Assembly: GCA_025359165.1 (NCBI GenBank)
Contig: JANYHG010000163.1
Span: forward strand, 1-45,399
Direction: 5' to 3'
Source of the DNA: Hyphomicrobiaceae bacterium
GTDB lineage: Bacteria; Pseudomonadota; Alphaproteobacteria; Rhizobiales; Hyphomicrobiaceae
Length of the DNA stretch: 45,399 nt
The notes under the pieces were generated by a model. That model worked only from the letters and a program-made list of their open reading frames with translations. It ran no database searches and was not told the origin of the DNA. Below are positions 13,838-19,750 of the stretch, piece after piece. Numbering within the stretch: the stretch's first letter is position 1; the number at the start of each line of letters is the position of its first letter. Position numbers and translations under genes: made by a program.

Positions 13838-14458
13838 TCACGCAGGTCGGGGTACGGCGAACTGCAGCGCGAGGACGAGCATCGCGATGGCGGCGATCCA
13901 GGATCCAGCGATACGAACGCCGATGCGGACCCACTGCGGTCGCGATGTGTGGATAGCCGCCGACACGCCGGTGATGTAGAGGACCGCAGCTGTCGATGCG
14001 ATCAGTGTGCCGGCATAGGTCTGGACGACCAGCCACGGTCGTTCAGCCCCAAAACTTGAATCGATACCGATCACGACTGCGGCAGTCCCGACTAATCCAA
14101 GCCTGACCAATCGCGGCGATGTGAGCGCAAGTGCAAGTGCTGCTCCGAGTACCATAGCGGCGACCAGAAGGAAGTTCTGCAGTCGTGCCTCTGGTATGTC
14201 CCTGATGGACGCCGAAGCGCTCACTGCTATCAACCCGAAAAGACAGCCAGCGCAAAACGCGGCCGCCGTGTCGACGACGCTTCCGTAGCCCTGTCGGCCT
14301 GCGAAAAGTCCACTCGCCGCGATCACCATGATATGCGCCGGCACCAGCAGCGGGTGCAATGCGCCGTTGGCGAAATGGCCGAGCCCGGCAAAGCCCATGT
14401 GAGCTTCTGCCGGGACCGCCCATACGAGCGCTATGACGAGGGGCAAAAAACGCCGCAT
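13838..14458 (-). CDS. HupE/UreJ-like membrane protein lacking the family metal motifs
   Basis: This 206-residue protein has a signal peptide (cleavage after AEA, leaving a mature N-terminal His) and about six membrane helices. Its layout follows the HupE/UreJ family: AHMGFAG, then GALHPLLVPAHIMVIAASGLFAG. The neighbouring HupE has HPLLGWDH at the same place; here Gly-Trp-Asp is replaced by Val-Pro-Ala. The second histidine cluster seen in HupE (HGHAHGTE) is also missing. It is therefore either a diverged partner subunit or a paralogue that no longer carries metal. It starts three bases after the stop of the hupE gene, so both should be translated from one transcript that begins at the amine oxidase. 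Confidence 0.8.
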   Translation of the reverse strand: MRRFLPLVIALVWAVPAEAHMGFAGLGHFANGALHPLLVPAHIMVIAASGLFAGRQGYGSVVDTAAAFCAGCLFGLIAVSASASIRDIPEARLQNFLLVAAMVLGAALALALTSPRLVRLGLVGTAAVVIGIDSSFGAERPWLVVQTYAGTLIASTAAVLYITGVSAAIHTSRPQWVRIGVRIAGSWIAAIAMLVLALQFAVPRPA

Positions 14459-14461
14459 GGT

Positions 14462-15076
14462 TCAGACAACGTGGCTGAGAAAGGCCAAGCCGACGGCGGC
14501 GATCACCAGACCGCCCGCACGCACGACCCATTGCCCAGCGGGCCAGCGCGTCAGCAAGCCAAGCGCGATGCCGCTCAGATGCAAGAGACCGGTCGCGACG
14601 ACGAAACCAACGGCGTAGGCAATCGGGTTGGACGCGCCCGGGAGCTCGGTGCCATGGGCATGTCCGTGAAAGATCGCAAATGCTCCCACCACGATCGCAG
14701 CGAACCAGATCGGCGGGCGGCTCGCTGCGGCGACCAGCAGTCCCAGCACGACCGCCGACAGCGCGATGCCCGTTTCGACGAACGGCACCGGCACACCGAT
14801 GATCCCCAGCACGCCGCCGACCACCATCACGAGCGGAAATACTATCGGCAATATCCATATTGCGGGCGCGCCGAGAAAGGCCCCCCAAAGCCCCACAGCC
14901 ACCATGGCGACAATGTGGTCCCAGCCGAGCAACGGGTGCAAGAAACCGCTCATCAGCCCGCCGGCGACACCTGCTTCGTTGTGGGCGAAAGCGACGTCGG
15001 GCATCACCAGCAGCGCGGTCACGGCGAGGGCCTTTATCAGCAGATCAGAAGTCAGGCGGTTCTCGAAAACAGGCAT
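14462..15076 (-). CDS. hupE: HupE/UreJ family metal transporter coupled to the amine oxidase
   Basis: This 204-residue inner-membrane protein of the HupE/UreJ family, known for nickel or cobalt uptake for hydrogenase and urease, starts at ATG 15076. An AGGAG-type site overlaps the stop codon of the amine-oxidase gene ten bases upstream, a sign of translational coupling. A signal peptide ends after AFA, giving mature HNEAG. Motifs are GFLHPLLGWDHIVAMVAVG and FAIFHGHAHGTELP, both rich in potential metal ligands, within about six helices. No hydrogenase or urease gene is in the window, so the partner appears to be the copper amine oxidase. Copper transport is thus an inference from context; nickel or cobalt remains possible. 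Confidence 0.88.
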   Translation of the reverse strand: MPVFENRLTSDLLIKALAVTALLVMPDVAFAHNEAGVAGGLMSGFLHPLLGWDHIVAMVAVGLWGAFLGAPAIWILPIVFPLVMVVGGVLGIIGVPVPFVETGIALSAVVLGLLVAAASRPPIWFAAIVVGAFAIFHGHAHGTELPGASNPIAYAVGFVVATGLLHLSGIALGLLTRWPAGQWVVRAGGLVIAAVGLAFLSHVV

Positions 15077-15086
15077 GTGCGTGCTC

Positions 15087-17123
15087 CTATCGAGGATTGA
15101 CGTTCGGCGGTTTTGGTGGCGTGGCGAACTCGGTTCGTAAGTCGACGGCCGGATTGCGATCGAAGAAGTTGAAGGGGCGCAGCTTGAAGCTGTGCCACAC
15201 CGTCGGCATGACCGGGATGTCCTCCGCACGGGTGAGATGCTGCATGCCCATGTTCACCCAGACGACGAGATCGTGATTGCGGATCGGCCGATTTTTCTTG
15301 ATCCAGACCGGAAGTCCCTGAATGCTTTTCGACGCGAACACGTATTGGCCGGCGGCGTATTGTTCTGCCGGATCGTGGCGCGTGATCCAAACGTCACCTT
15401 GCAGGAATGCTGCGCGTTTCCCCGGCCAGTCGGTCAGGTCGACGAAAGCGCTGCCGTGCCCGACGTGTACGATCTCATAACCGACAGGATTGCCCACCGC
15501 GTTGGTGTGCGTTTCGTTGATCACACGCAGCTTGACCGGTCCTTTTGCCGTGTGGCTGTGTTCGCCGCCGAGCATGCTTTCCCGCTCCAGAACTTCGGGA
15601 ATGACCTGATAAAGTGATCGCCGTGGGCTGGATGCAGGCAGTGCGACCTGACGATAAACATCGCGCTGAAAACTATTGTCGGTACCGTCGACATCCAGAT
15701 CGAGGCGATAGTTGAAATGGTGATCGTGCTGGATCGCCGTCAGATTGGGTGCCACCAGCGTGCCCGTTCTGGTGTCGATCCTGGCGGTTGCGTCGCGCAT
15801 CGACTTCGTCGGCACCCCTTTCAGCGCGACGATCCCGGTGGCACCTACGCGCACCTCGATTTCGGCTGCATGATTGAAGACCCAGTCCATGATGTAGTCG
15901 TAGTTGCCGACCTGTGACGCCATACGCACGACCAGTTCGGTGCCGGGCCGGCCTTCGAAACTTCCATTGTTGACCTCGTGGTGCCGCCACGCTGGATCGC
16001 CGTTGTTGCGCTCGAAGATGCAGATGGCGTTGGGCTTTTCGACGGCCTCTCCCGAGTCGCCATTGGTGACCGCGTTCACGAAGCTTGCGCCCTCGGGGCA
16101 ATCGATGCCCGCAGTCAAGGGGGACGACAACTGTCCGACGCCGTATTCGCCCATGTCGAAATAGGTACGCGAATACCAGCCGTAGTCCGGGTCCATGTAC
16201 GGCACGTACATTTCCGACATATAGCCCTGGTAGAGCACCGATCGTTCGCGACCGGCATCCATCCATCGAGCCTGCGAAATGACGGTACCCTGTCGGCTCT
16301 CGAAGCGCAGGTGGAAACGCCAGTTGCCCCAAGTGACGGTCCCGCCTTCGATCGTGTAGTTCGCGCCGAGGGGCTGTGCGATCACCGTCGGGTTTTCAGC
16401 AGGCCGCAATGCACCGATGGCGCGTTCGGTAAAATTCATTTCCTGTGGCGATACCGGAACGATCCCGAGGTCGATGACTTGCGAGACCGTCATCGTGCGA
16501 AGATCAACGAGTGCGTAGAGACGCTCGATCGGCCAGCCGAAGATGTTGTTGGTGGCACGCGAAACATCGAAGCAGCCGACTTTGAGCAGCCGCTTCCCTT
16601 CGTGCGCCTTGATCGCGAAATATCCGGCGGCGAACGGCGCGCAATCGACGTGCTCCATGTCGACAAAGCCGCGTCGCTTCAAAGCCGCGAGCATCACAGG
16701 GTCGGTGCGTGCGGCCTCGACCGCCTCGCTCGACTCGTTCAACGTCAACGGCACTTCGACGCCGCGTGGTTCCACCAGGGAAGCGATGGTGCCGGCATCG
16801 AGATCCACGACGATTTCGAACACCCTCGATGCCTTGACCGCTGTCACGCGGGCGCGACGCAGCAAGGGTATGCCGAGGCGCCACGCAAGCACGGTATTCT
16901 TCGCCGGTTCGGCCAGGGTGATCAGCTGAAATCGTACACCGGCGGTGGCAGGAGCCGCGTTGACGATCGCCGTCGCGCGTTCGATCTCGGTCTTCGTCAG
17001 TGCATCGAGCGGGTGCGTCTGGGCGCGAGCCGGGCTCGCCCAAACTGCCCCACTTGCAACCGCGACCGCCACGCACCGAAACGCCGACCAAAACCTCGAT
17101 GACGGATTGAGCCGTTTTGGCAC
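15087..17123 (-). CDS. Periplasmic copper amine oxidase (topaquinone enzyme)
   Basis: This protein of 678 residues oxidises primary amines to aldehydes, ammonia and hydrogen peroxide, using copper and a self-made topaquinone. I choose GTG 17123: an AGGAAG site precedes it by six bases, and it gives a clean signal peptide ending at ARAQ. A longer frame to 17255 would run through an upstream terminator. The key residues are present: catalytic-base Asp323 in YFDMG, Tyr408 in VGNYDY (the topaquinone precursor), copper ligands His466 and His468 in QHDHH, and His644 in TVWHSFK. N-terminal D2/D3-type domains occupy about 40-260. Its stop overlaps the ribosome-binding site of hupE, so the oxidase heads a three-gene operon. 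Tyramine or phenylethylamine is a plausible substrate, not established. Confidence 0.93.
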   Translation of the reverse strand: MPKRLNPSSRFWSAFRCVAVAVASGAVWASPARAQTHPLDALTKTEIERATAIVNAAPATAGVRFQLITLAEPAKNTVLAWRLGIPLLRRARVTAVKASRVFEIVVDLDAGTIASLVEPRGVEVPLTLNESSEAVEAARTDPVMLAALKRRGFVDMEHVDCAPFAAGYFAIKAHEGKRLLKVGCFDVSRATNNIFGWPIERLYALVDLRTMTVSQVIDLGIVPVSPQEMNFTERAIGALRPAENPTVIAQPLGANYTIEGGTVTWGNWRFHLRFESRQGTVISQARWMDAGRERSVLYQGYMSEMYVPYMDPDYGWYSRTYFDMGEYGVGQLSSPLTAGIDCPEGASFVNAVTNGDSGEAVEKPNAICIFERNNGDPAWRHHEVNNGSFEGRPGTELVVRMASQVGNYDYIMDWVFNHAAEIEVRVGATGIVALKGVPTKSMRDATARIDTRTGTLVAPNLTAIQHDHHFNYRLDLDVDGTDNSFQRDVYRQVALPASSPRRSLYQVIPEVLERESMLGGEHSHTAKGPVKLRVINETHTNAVGNPVGYEIVHVGHGSAFVDLTDWPGKRAAFLQGDVWITRHDPAEQYAAGQYVFASKSIQGLPVWIKKNRPIRNHDLVVWVNMGMQHLTRAEDIPVMPTVWHSFKLRPFNFFDRNPAVDLRTEFATPPKPPNVNPR

Positions 17124-17206: not shown

Positions 17207-17238
17207 AAAAAAACGGGCCGCATTCGGAATACGGCCCG
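17207..17238 (-). terminator. Rho-independent terminator after the small secreted peptide gene
   Basis: On the minus strand CGGGCCGTATT and its partner around TGCGGCCCG form a GC-rich stem followed directly by seven T (A run at 17207-17213 on the plus strand; arms at 17214-17220 and 17232-17238). It lies 43 bases after the stop of the 59-residue gene and 84 bases before the amine-oxidase start, so the two are separate transcripts. Confidence 0.85.
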
Positions 17239-17280
17239 CCGAGACGATGGGTCACTGGATCATAAAAAGAGCCGAACAGC

Positions 17281-17460
17281 TCACTTCATGACGCAACCCT
17301 TGTCCTTCTTGCTGTAGTATTTGCCCATGCCGCATTTGCCGGGTTTGCCCTTGGTCACGTGCGCCTTGGCTTCGGCTGCGCCGGACGAACCGATCGAGGT
17401 CGCGACGAGTGTCGTTGTTGCAAGGAACGCCATGGCCATTGCGAGTGTCAGGAAGCGCAT
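17281..17460 (-). CDS. Small secreted cysteine-containing peptide (59 residues)
   Basis: This short gene runs from ATG 17460 with a GGAGAG ribosome-binding site about eight bases upstream to TGA, and is followed by a textbook terminator, so it is very likely real. The product has a clear signal peptide (MRFLTLAMAMAFLATTTLVA..., cleavage near GAAEA) and a mature part of about 30 residues. The mature part is rich in Lys and Gly, with two cysteines in the pattern GKCGMGKYYSKKDKGC. The cysteines may form a disulfide. I recognise similar tiny KPGKC-type exported proteins in Hyphomicrobiales, but none with a function I can name. Its position between the amine oxidase and a HupE-type gene makes a link to metal or amine metabolism possible. 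Confidence 0.75.
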   Translation of the reverse strand: MRFLTLAMAMAFLATTTLVATSIGSSGAAEAKAHVTKGKPGKCGMGKYYSKKDKGCVMK

Positions 17461-17654: not shown

Positions 17655-18848
17655 TTACACAAACCAAATTCGTTGCACCGTCCAAAACATGCCAATAAGG
17701 GCGATCGCCGCCGATACTGGCCAGACCACGCGCGCGCGATACCACGGCTCCCGGCCGAACCAGTACGCCGTCGTCATCCAGGCAATGGCGATGATGGCCA
17801 ACTGGCCGAATTCGACGCCGATATTGAAGGCGATCAAACCGAGCACGAATTGCTCGCGTGGCAGGCCGAGTTCCAGCAACACGCCGGCAAAACCAAGGCC
17901 ATGCAACAGGCCGAAGGCAAATACGACGACCGGTCGCCAAAAGCTCAATTGCGACGTCATCAGATTTTCGACGGCGACGAACACGATCGATAGGGCGATC
18001 AACGGTTCGACGATGGCGGGCGACACCTGAACGACGCCGTAGAGGCCGAGCGCGAGTGTGATCGAGTGCGCGATCGTGAAGGCCGTGACCTGCACCAACA
18101 AGGGACGCATCTGTGTGCTCAACAGGAACAAGCCGAGTACGAACAGGATATGATCCACTCCGATTGGTACGATGTGGGAAAATCCGAGCGCGATATAGTC
18201 GGCAAAAACGAGTAGTTGGCTTCGGAGTGTGCCGGCGACCAGCGGGACGTCCGCACTGGGCGCGCCATTTTTGAGCCAGCTCGTTTCCAACTCCGTCGAC
18301 CCACCGCGCTTGACCCTGAGAACGCTGCTGCCGAACGCCGCTGGGTAGGTCCATCGGAAGGCCTTGGCGTGTGCCGGAATCGTGCCGGCTAACCGAAGCG
18401 TCGAGATCCGCGCCAGCGCCGGATCGACACCCGCTGGCGTCGTCACCGATACGATATTCGCCGGCGACGGCTGCCCGTCGAACGCGATACCGATGTCGCG
18501 AAGATATTGCGGCGCGAACTGATCGAACTTGGCTCGCAGTTCGTCGGCCGAAACGGTCCTCAACTGATTGTATTGCAATGCCTGTGGCGCGTCGTTGCTG
18601 TCCTTGTGTTCCGAGCCTATCCCGACCAATAGTGCTTCGAGATTAGCTGTGATGACGATCGTGTAGCTTCCCGGCGTCGACAGATCGACCGAGACGATGG
18701 CGGGACGAATCTCATGGGCTTGCAGAGGGGCCGCACCCCACCCGTTACTCGCCAGATTTACGACCGCGCAGACGAACAGAGTTAGGAGCGACCGGATGGA
18801 TTGCAATGGACGGCGGTTCAAGTCAGTCATCGGACAAACAATGCACAT
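17655..18848 (-). CDS. HupE/UreJ family 2 protein with large periplasmic domain
   Basis: This protein of about 397 residues belongs to the second HupE/UreJ type. A signal peptide ends after PLQA, leaving mature HEIRPAIV. A periplasmic beta-rich domain of about 180 residues follows. Then comes a membrane part with GFSHIVPIGVDHILFVLGLFLL, HSITLALGLYG, FAFGLLHGLGFAGVL and FNIGVEFGQL, the histidine and glycine motifs of the family. I place the start at ATG 18848 (GGACGG upstream); ATG 18830 is also possible. The gene is divergent from the DUF4198 gene about 100 bases away, so the two may share regulation. Family knowledge suggests metal transport. Nickel or cobalt is the textbook assignment; copper is an inference from the neighbouring amine oxidase. 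Confidence 0.85.
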   Translation of the reverse strand: MCIVCPMTDLNRRPLQSIRSLLTLFVCAVVNLASNGWGAAPLQAHEIRPAIVSVDLSTPGSYTIVITANLEALLVGIGSEHKDSNDAPQALQYNQLRTVSADELRAKFDQFAPQYLRDIGIAFDGQPSPANIVSVTTPAGVDPALARISTLRLAGTIPAHAKAFRWTYPAAFGSSVLRVKRGGSTELETSWLKNGAPSADVPLVAGTLRSQLLVFADYIALGFSHIVPIGVDHILFVLGLFLLSTQMRPLLVQVTAFTIAHSITLALGLYGVVQVSPAIVEPLIALSIVFVAVENLMTSQLSFWRPVVVFAFGLLHGLGFAGVLLELGLPREQFVLGLIAFNIGVEFGQLAIIAIAWMTTAYWFGREPWYRARVVWPVSAAIALIGMFWTVQRIWFV

Positions 18849-18946
18849 TTTTCGCCGTCCATGTTGCAACTTTGCGGGACGCGTCACGTAGCTATCAAGG
18901 CAAGATAATCGATATACGTACGAAATCACCTGACGGAGATGATCGC

Positions 18947-19750
18947 TTGAAGTTTATTTGCTCCAAGGTCCGAATTGCCTTGCTGGCTCTGATCTGCGTG
19001 CTGCCGAAACTTGCGTCGGCCCATGAGTTTTGGCTCGATCCGGTCGATTTCGCTCCGAAGGTCGGGGCCGAGGTGCCGATTGTGCAGCGGACCGGGATCA
19101 ACTTTCTCGGCGACAGTTTTCCTCACGTCCAAGAGATGTCGAAGCGGTTTTCGGTCGTCGACGCACGCGGCGAGAGGCCGATCAAAGCGGTGGAGGGTGA
19201 CGATCCCGCAGGCGATGCCAAGTTCCCGAATGCCGGATTGGCCATCGTTGTCTACGAACGCGCTCCCGACATCGTCACGCATCCGACAGTCGACCGGTTC
19301 GCCGAGATCGTTGCGATCGAAGGACTTGAAGACATCTCGCGTCAGCATCGCGAACAGGGGCTGCCGCCAACGGATATCAAAGAGACGTATGCCCGCTTCG
19401 CCAAATCTCTGATCAAGGTCGGCAAGAGTTCCGGTCTCGATCGTGCGGTGGGCTTGACCTTCGAACTGGTCGTCGAGACCGACGTCTATAAGCTGTCTGC
19501 GAATGCCGATGTCCCGGTGCGAGTTCTGTTATCAGGAAAACCGGTCGAAAACGTTCTCGTCAAGGCTTTCAATCTTGCCGACACCTCGTCGCCACGGACG
19601 GCGCGTTCAGATGCCGATGGGCGCGTCACGCTCGCCGGGGTGCCGTCGGGCGAAGTGCTCGTCAGCGCCGTGACGATGTTCCGCGCCGAGCCTGCCACTG
19701 GCGCGCTTTGGACCAGCTTGTGGGCGTCGACCACCTTCAAGCGACCATGA
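18947..19750 (+). CDS. DUF4198 periplasmic protein, possible metal-binding
   Basis: The product of 267 residues carries a signal peptide ending at LASA, followed by mature HEFWLDPVDF, the hallmark start of DUF4198 proteins. An Ig-like or carboxypeptidase-regulatory-like C-terminal domain follows (PVRVLLSGKPVENVLVKAFN...SDADGRVTLAGVPSGEVLVSAV). I start it at TTG 18947 with an ACGGAG site nine bases upstream; the open frame extends upstream to 18806 but would overlap the divergent gene and bury the signal peptide. DUF4198 is related to the NikK-like periplasmic component of nickel transporters. The N-terminal histidine could ligate metal as in histidine-brace proteins, which is an inference. 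It stands divergent to the HupE-type gene, likely as its partner. Confidence 0.82.
   Translation: MKFICSKVRIALLALICVLPKLASAHEFWLDPVDFAPKVGAEVPIVQRTGINFLGDSFPHVQEMSKRFSVVDARGERPIKAVEGDDPAGDAKFPNAGLAIVVYERAPDIVTHPTVDRFAEIVAIEGLEDISRQHREQGLPPTDIKETYARFAKSLIKVGKSSGLDRAVGLTFELVVETDVYKLSANADVPVRVLLSGKPVENVLVKAFNLADTSSPRTARSDADGRVTLAGVPSGEVLVSAVTMFRAEPATGALWTSLWASTTFKRP

Follow-up and report, generated by a model that had tools for sequence, protein, structure and literature searches.

Secreted copper amine oxidases (CuAOs) need periplasmic copper and then form their topaquinone by self-processing; to our knowledge, no dedicated copper donor has been established for the bacterial enzymes. Here we describe a window of 45,399 nucleotides from a Hyphomicrobiaceae bacterium (assembly GCA_025359165.1, contig JANYHG010000163.1, positions 1 to 45,399 of the forward strand), in which the gene for a secreted CuAO is followed by two genes for HupE/UreJ-type membrane proteins, hupE-1 and hupE-2, and preceded by a gene for a third HupE-family protein, an 'anglerase' permease with an Ang-1 domain, which is accompanied by a gene for a secreted DUF4198 protein. 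We propose that this CuAO belongs to a subfamily that is paired with membrane-bound copper-handling partners, and that the anglerase/DUF4198 unit, not the downstream HupE genes, is its core partner here; we put the probability of this reading at roughly 45%.

The Ang-1 HupE/UreJ-2 anglerases (PMC12537917) share with the window the PF13795 permease, the N-terminal Ang-1 domain, the histidine of the mature protein, the equivalent of Asn41 and the DUF4198 neighbour; the window differs from them in its link to a CuAO, and 'amine oxidase' is absent from the main text of that paper, its supplements lying outside this check. With the CuAOs of the TynA/PRK11504 type, the window enzyme has the catalytic and copper residues as well as the N2, N3 and catalytic domains in common, but it is secreted, scores below the cut-off of that family and has no recognised aldehyde dehydrogenase gene nearby. 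In the PpoB1/PpoB2 system of Marinomonas, a copper oxidase is likewise encoded beside a membrane copper-handling gene, and PpoB2 is reported to deliver copper specifically to tyrosinase (PMC2855505); the Pfam name of its family, PF09948, is 'Copper chaperone'. PpoB2-family genes are also found near eight related CuAOs, whereas the window has HupE_UreJ_2 and DUF4198 genes, and its genome (G000) yields no PF09948 match. Finally, the HupE/UreJ nickel/cobalt permeases (PF04955) carry the signature HPXXGXDH (PMC7689651) and resemble hupE-1 in domain and signature, but the window genes lie outside a hydrogenase or urease cluster, and hupE-2 lacks the signature.

Within the open-licence literature, subscription papers being outside this scope, we found no paper describing a link between HupE and amine oxidases, mostly as judged by title; in PMC3899966, the two are separate entries of one gene table. 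Likewise, no paper was found there that brings together two of the three terms DUF2182, DUF1326 and 'amine oxidase' or, as far as main texts go, that links an anglerase to an amine oxidase.

Anglerase genes near CuAO genes

We compared 133 distinct CuAO loci. In 106 of them the gene is flanked by 4 kb or more on either side; the other 27 have a contig end within 4 kb. They comprise the surroundings of all matches in the family (12 of 103 genomes at E 1e-30), the class (25 of 385 at E 1e-50), the phylum (22 of 398, profile search at E 1e-60) and the order (43 of 397, profile search at E 1e-180), together with six of the 91 plasmid records that had a CuAO match and 28 loci from Methylobacterium and Acidobacteria added by a scan of genome contigs. 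No HupE-family gene was found in the available flanks of these 28 scan loci. As the profile built on hupE-1 also matches PF13795 genes, its label at three loci (L018, L162 and L167) denotes the anglerase; each of them has one HupE-like gene.

An anglerase gene lies near the CuAO gene in four loci: the window, a genome of the same genus (G073), a genome from another family of the class (G109) and a plasmid of Leisingera caerulea (NZ_CP081071.1). The genera represented number no fewer than two and very probably three, the family of G109 having a single genome in the collection. In G073, the genes for the anglerase, a peptide and DUF4198 are convergent to that for a CuAO of 67% identity, in a gene order that is rearranged relative to the window. 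The anglerase gene of G109 stands directly upstream of the CuAO gene, on a contig that ends shortly after, and the Leisingera plasmid carries an anglerase gene, a CuAO gene, a different peptide gene and a DUF4198 gene within 4.7 kb. For G074, whose CuAO is 64% identical, linkage cannot be judged, since contig ends fall between the genes concerned.

Some further observations concern these loci and similar gene sets. The anglerase gene of G074 (L134, G074:C615) adjoins what appears by eye to be a phage-type integrase-like open reading frame, which hints at an island. A secreted peptide containing AKAHDQGVADG is encoded 3' of, and convergent to, the CuAO genes at L162 (8929-9198) and L167 (2-274). 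On a plasmid of Mesorhizobium onobrychidis (L240), a DUF4198 gene and a PF13795-type gene lie by the gene for a GMC oxidoreductase of 1562 amino acids and by a weak DUF4331 match. On a plasmid of Rhodobacteraceae SC52 (L241), two genes annotated as HupE/UreJ, a peptidyl-prolyl isomerase gene and a HupE-like open reading frame adjoin genes for DUF3604, two GTP-binding proteins and DUF1826; this set is reminiscent of zinc-starvation loci, which suggests that the cassette handles another metal.

We roughly estimate the chance of two independent anglerase-CuAO neighbourhoods at 1.5e-4, or at 0.017 if one anglerase were present in every genome; the estimate takes the loci to be independent and supposes 4000 genes, with 6 places counted as neighbouring. 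To place the linked oxidases, we used a second tree of 71 rows, comprising 39 new loci and 32 selected from an earlier 92, most of them out of the first tree's nearer half. In it, the linked CuAOs are split between two positions, window/G073/G074 and Leisingera/G109; the sister of the latter is the unlinked CuAO of G947 (97), and the starred branches force three label changes.

Predicted metal-binding features

Residues 72-234 of the window anglerase match 9GCE, the copper-loaded crystal structure of an Ang-1 domain, from its residue 1 onwards (E 2.6e-13; profile search E 1.7e-20). That domain binds copper with a dissociation constant of 74 nM and nickel with one of 220 nM (PMC12537917). The mature anglerase is predicted to begin with HEIRP (QA|HEIRP, with the cleavage site judged by eye), and alignments show the N-terminal histidine to be conserved. 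The second copper ligand of 9GCE, Asn41, aligns with an asparagine in the window protein (KDSND versus EDTND). We infer that the metal captured by the anglerase is copper.

DUF4198 is listed among the prevalent neighbours of anglerases, and IsDUF4198 binds nickel through His1 and His18 (PMC12537917). The DUF4198 protein of the window keeps the histidine at the N-terminus, which is invariant across 24 aligned sequences, in which no other histidine is invariant. Its similarity to the solved nickel-binding DUF4198 protein (9GCB, called NikK in the PDB) is weak, with a match of E 2.1e-4 over the C-terminal third for a profile of these sequences and no match at E 1 for the single sequence. The two genes mostly occur together without CuAO: a profile search of the class at E 1e-55 matched anglerases in 33 genomes out of 385, and DUF4198 accompanies the anglerase in 24 of 28 anglerase loci (window and G109 excluded), always in divergent orientation.

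The oxidase, its downstream genes and its predicted transcript

The features of the locus are collected in Table 1. The sequence-only reading had dwelt on the range 13838-17123, beyond which lie three relevant genes: those for the PF13795 protein, the 59-residue peptide and DUF4198. Upstream of the CuAO gene, the anglerase gene begins about 0.5 kb and the DUF4198 gene about 1.8 kb away.

Table 1. Features of the CuAO locus, in window positions
Feature	Position	Strand	Details
Secreted copper (topaquinone) amine oxidase (CuAO), 678 amino acids	15087-17123	minus	GTG start 17123, TAG stop 15087
hupE-1, classic HupE/UreJ membrane protein, 204 amino acids	14462-15076	minus	ATG 15076; PF04955 201.5 bits; HPLLGWDH and FHGHAHGTE
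hupE-2, degenerate HupE-like membrane protein, 206 amino acids	13838-14458	minus	ATG 14458; PF04955 46.3 bits
TAGGAG, ribosome-binding-like site of hupE-1 holding the CuAO stop codon	15084-15089	minus	read from the sequence
Ang-1 and HupE_UreJ_2 'anglerase' permease, third HupE-family gene	17655-18929	minus	PF13795 163.2 bits; likely ATG 18830
DUF4198 secreted protein, mature N-terminus HEFW	~18968-19750	plus	PF10670 91.1 bits; divergent from the anglerase gene; longest open reading frame opens at 18806, 18968 being the chosen start
Secreted peptide of 59 amino acids ending KAHVTKGKPGKCGMGKYYSKKDKGCVMK	17281-17460	minus	no Pfam match; 69% identical copy in G073 (L018:8111-8293)
Predicted intrinsic terminator, 13-pair stem and T run	17212-17240	minus	between the 59-residue peptide gene and the CuAO gene; -23.8 kcal/mol, z -3.1 (61-base stretch)

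The oxidase matches PF01179 (E 6.9e-126; 420.9 bits against a cut-off of 27), PF02727 and PF02728, and aligns over its full length with the E. coli amine oxidase 1d6u (402 bits). Against PRK11504, the NCBIfam model of ordinary primary-amine oxidases, it reaches 577.6 bits, below the cut-off of 651. Its N-terminus is a predicted signal peptide ending in SPARA|Q, as judged by eye; in a second CuAO of the same genome (G000:C155), no signal peptide is apparent by eye. The alignments with the E. coli enzyme and with 92 rows bear out the earlier claim that the catalytic residues are intact: the topaquinone tyrosine in NYD, the three histidine ligands of copper, the catalytic aspartate and the tyrosine of VPY are all present, where we take the role of each residue to be as in the general understanding of the family. 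An asparagine precedes the topaquinone tyrosine in 89 of the 92 rows, while the CuAOs at L167 (427-2508) and L162 (6926-8842) read AHYDY.

The coordinates also agree exactly with what had been said of the junctions: the CuAO stop codon overlaps the ribosome-binding site of hupE-1, and the gaps are 10 bases between CuAO and hupE-1 and 3 bases between hupE-1 and hupE-2. Both products exceed the PF04955 cut-off of 23 bits. The signature appears in hupE-1 as HPLLGWDH; in the alignment, hupE-2 has HPLLVPAH in its place and also lacks FHGxAHGxE, and it retains a histidine right after the signal peptide.

A terminator is predicted between the peptide gene and the CuAO gene. The scan gave 9 terminator-like sites in total against a shuffle mean of 7.0, so that only the strength of this site itself counts. 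It would set CuAO, hupE-1 and hupE-2 on a transcript of their own, apart from the anglerase and peptide genes. A single transcript for the anglerase and CuAO genes of the window is therefore unlikely.

A second candidate type of copper-handling partner

DUF1326 genes lie within 4 kb of the CuAO gene in nine of the 133 loci (L318, L319, L320, L321, L322, L323, L324, L336 and L345), all in genomes of the order to which the window belongs. A PpoB2 gene (PF09948) stands alongside in eight of them; the locus without it, L322, is a short contig. Pfam identified three of the nine pairs, and the others were recognised with profiles built from those three. The gap between CuAO and DUF1326 is 21-942 bases in eight loci and 3.2 kb in L345. 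None of the 133 loci has both an anglerase gene and a DUF1326/PpoB2 pair within 4 kb of the CuAO gene. At the genome level, an anglerase match (1e-20) is absent from eight of the nine DUF1326-linked genomes and present in G874, and a search of seven genomes or records (for Leisingera, the plasmid alone) gave a PF09948 match in one, G109.

A broader generalization would be that a subfamily of secreted bacterial CuAOs depends on dedicated membrane copper donors, which are, according to lineage, either PpoB2/DUF1326 or the unrelated anglerase Ang-1-HupE_UreJ_2 with DUF4198. We regard this as less likely than not.

Proposed mechanism

In our proposal, the oxidase would take up periplasmic copper before the self-processing of its topaquinone. 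The Ang-1 domain, held at the inner membrane by the permease domain, may bind periplasmic Cu(II) via its N-terminal histidine and the asparagine, and may pass it to the apo-oxidase or maintain a local copper pool, while surplus copper would leave through the permease domain of the anglerase. DUF4198 would be a second metal binder with an N-terminal histidine within the anglerase unit, and the hupE-1/hupE-2 pair a window-specific addition, translated together with the oxidase. What the analysis establishes is which genes are present, how closely they are spaced, that the metal ligands are conserved and that the arrangement recurs in four loci; the delivery of copper to the oxidase and the direction in which it is transported we infer. 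A membrane-tethered copper site with an N-terminal histidine is plausible both as a donor and as a local store.

Alternative explanations

Several results weigh against a partnership of anglerase and oxidase. Three of them are the strongest: the linkage is rare, with four loci in 133; the predicted terminator would separate the anglerase side from the CuAO gene; and an importing permease would move copper away from a periplasmic enzyme, uptake being the direction assumed for HupE. In addition, no CuAO was found in the 20 of the 28 anglerase loci that form the wider-flank set; the only recurrent neighbour of such CuAO-less anglerases is DUF4198, apart from sets common to 3 to 6 loci. Among genomes of the window's family, G012 carries an anglerase and no CuAO match, and it is this unlinked anglerase that is nearest to that of the window in the anglerase tree; G071 has an anglerase as well, and its sole CuAO is distant and on another contig. 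The copper site itself varies: the equivalent of Asn41 is serine in the G109 anglerase and aspartate in that of Leisingera, and this residue is described as not highly conserved in Ang-1 (PMC12537917). According to the same paper, IsDUF4198 prefers nickel and is not stabilised by copper. Its second ligand, His18, is missing from the subgroup to which the window protein belongs; counted by eye, the mature DUF4198 protein of the window has no histidine at residue 18. The clustering of linked loci in the tree is modest (32 of 500 label shuffles are as low as observed), and approximately unbiased (AU) tests on a group of five rows, which included G074 with its unassessable linkage, do not reject a single grouping (p 0.093 with 71 rows, 0.48 with 92). 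The tree is thus compatible with a single gain followed by losses as well as with two separate gains, and the two events in the chance estimate may be one. Lastly, the PpoB2 gene of G109 and the anglerase gene of G874 lie elsewhere in genomes that have the other system beside the CuAO gene; one and the same genome can therefore contain both systems.

The sequence-only reading had inferred a joint function of the oxidase with the two adjacent HupE genes and had proposed conserved adjacency as its test. A true PF04955 gene within 4 kb of CuAO occurs in a single locus of the 133, the window, and CuAO-HupE (PF04955) was consequently rejected as a conserved pair. The idea of a HupE-family metal handler linked to the oxidase gains support through a gene that this reading had not mentioned, the Ang-1/HupE_UreJ_2 gene of the four linked loci, and fails for the two PF04955 genes; the reading had the wrong genes and possibly the right idea. 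For these two, nickel is the simplest reading: they would be independent nickel/cobalt permeases that serve urease or other nickel/cobalt enzymes, not the oxidase, and that a local rearrangement attached to its transcript. This main rival reading is a real possibility, if short of an even chance, and draws mainly on the lack of conservation just described. The pair also stands without a CuAO match (E 1e-30) in nine other genomes of the family (G002, G021, G023, G043, G046, G048, G057, G080 and G082) and without CuAO on stretches of the D. shibae plasmid pDSHI02 and the La 6 plasmid, and hupE-1 bears the nickel/cobalt signature. Moreover, a urease alpha gene is present in the window genome, whose only PF04955 matches are hupE-1 and hupE-2, and the sole PF04955 gene of G073 sits among urease genes (beta and gamma, read by eye). 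However, that urease alpha gene (L359, G000:C85) contains an in-frame stop in the assembly and lies on a contig that is cut, so that the genome does not necessarily encode a functional urease; the enzyme may be dead, and a ureJ may have been lost. The tight spacing of the pair to CuAO, the presence of a third HupE-family gene and DUF4198 within the same 6 kb, the missing signature of hupE-2 and the identity of only 46% over 167 residues between hupE-1 and the G073 HupE likewise speak against this reading.

Co-regulation might explain the neighbourhood of anglerase and oxidase with no handover of metal, if both belonged to a shared copper- or redox-responsive regulon. In both G109 and Leisingera, a gene for an extracytoplasmic function (ECF) sigma factor lies upstream of those for the anglerase and CuAO, the two factors sharing 63% identity; another one, of 33-37% identity, adjoins the CuAO gene of G074, and the window oxidase, judging by the terminator, has its own transcript. 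Beside the window genes, however, no ECF sigma gene was seen by eye, no dedicated search having been made, and in G109 and Leisingera the anglerase and CuAO genes follow one another directly; on balance, we find co-regulation alone improbable. Far less probable still is a role of the membrane proteins in handling a product of amine oxidation, such as ammonia, aldehyde or peroxide, with no metal involved. Adjacency is its sole support, whereas the N-terminal histidine of the anglerase is conserved and its nearest relative in the PDB binds copper; an aldehyde dehydrogenase gene lies beside CuAO in three other loci, while none is annotated around the Leisingera CuAO, nor was one recognised by eye near that of the window.

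Implications

The window and its relatives offer two candidate copper-donor systems for bacterial CuAOs, together with the gene sets concerned and at least one strain known by name. The role of anglerases has so far rested on metal binding and gene neighbourhoods, and CuAO would provide them with a possible client enzyme. If the broader generalization above is true, anglerases would be enzyme-specific copper chaperones, beyond their role as uptake permeases.

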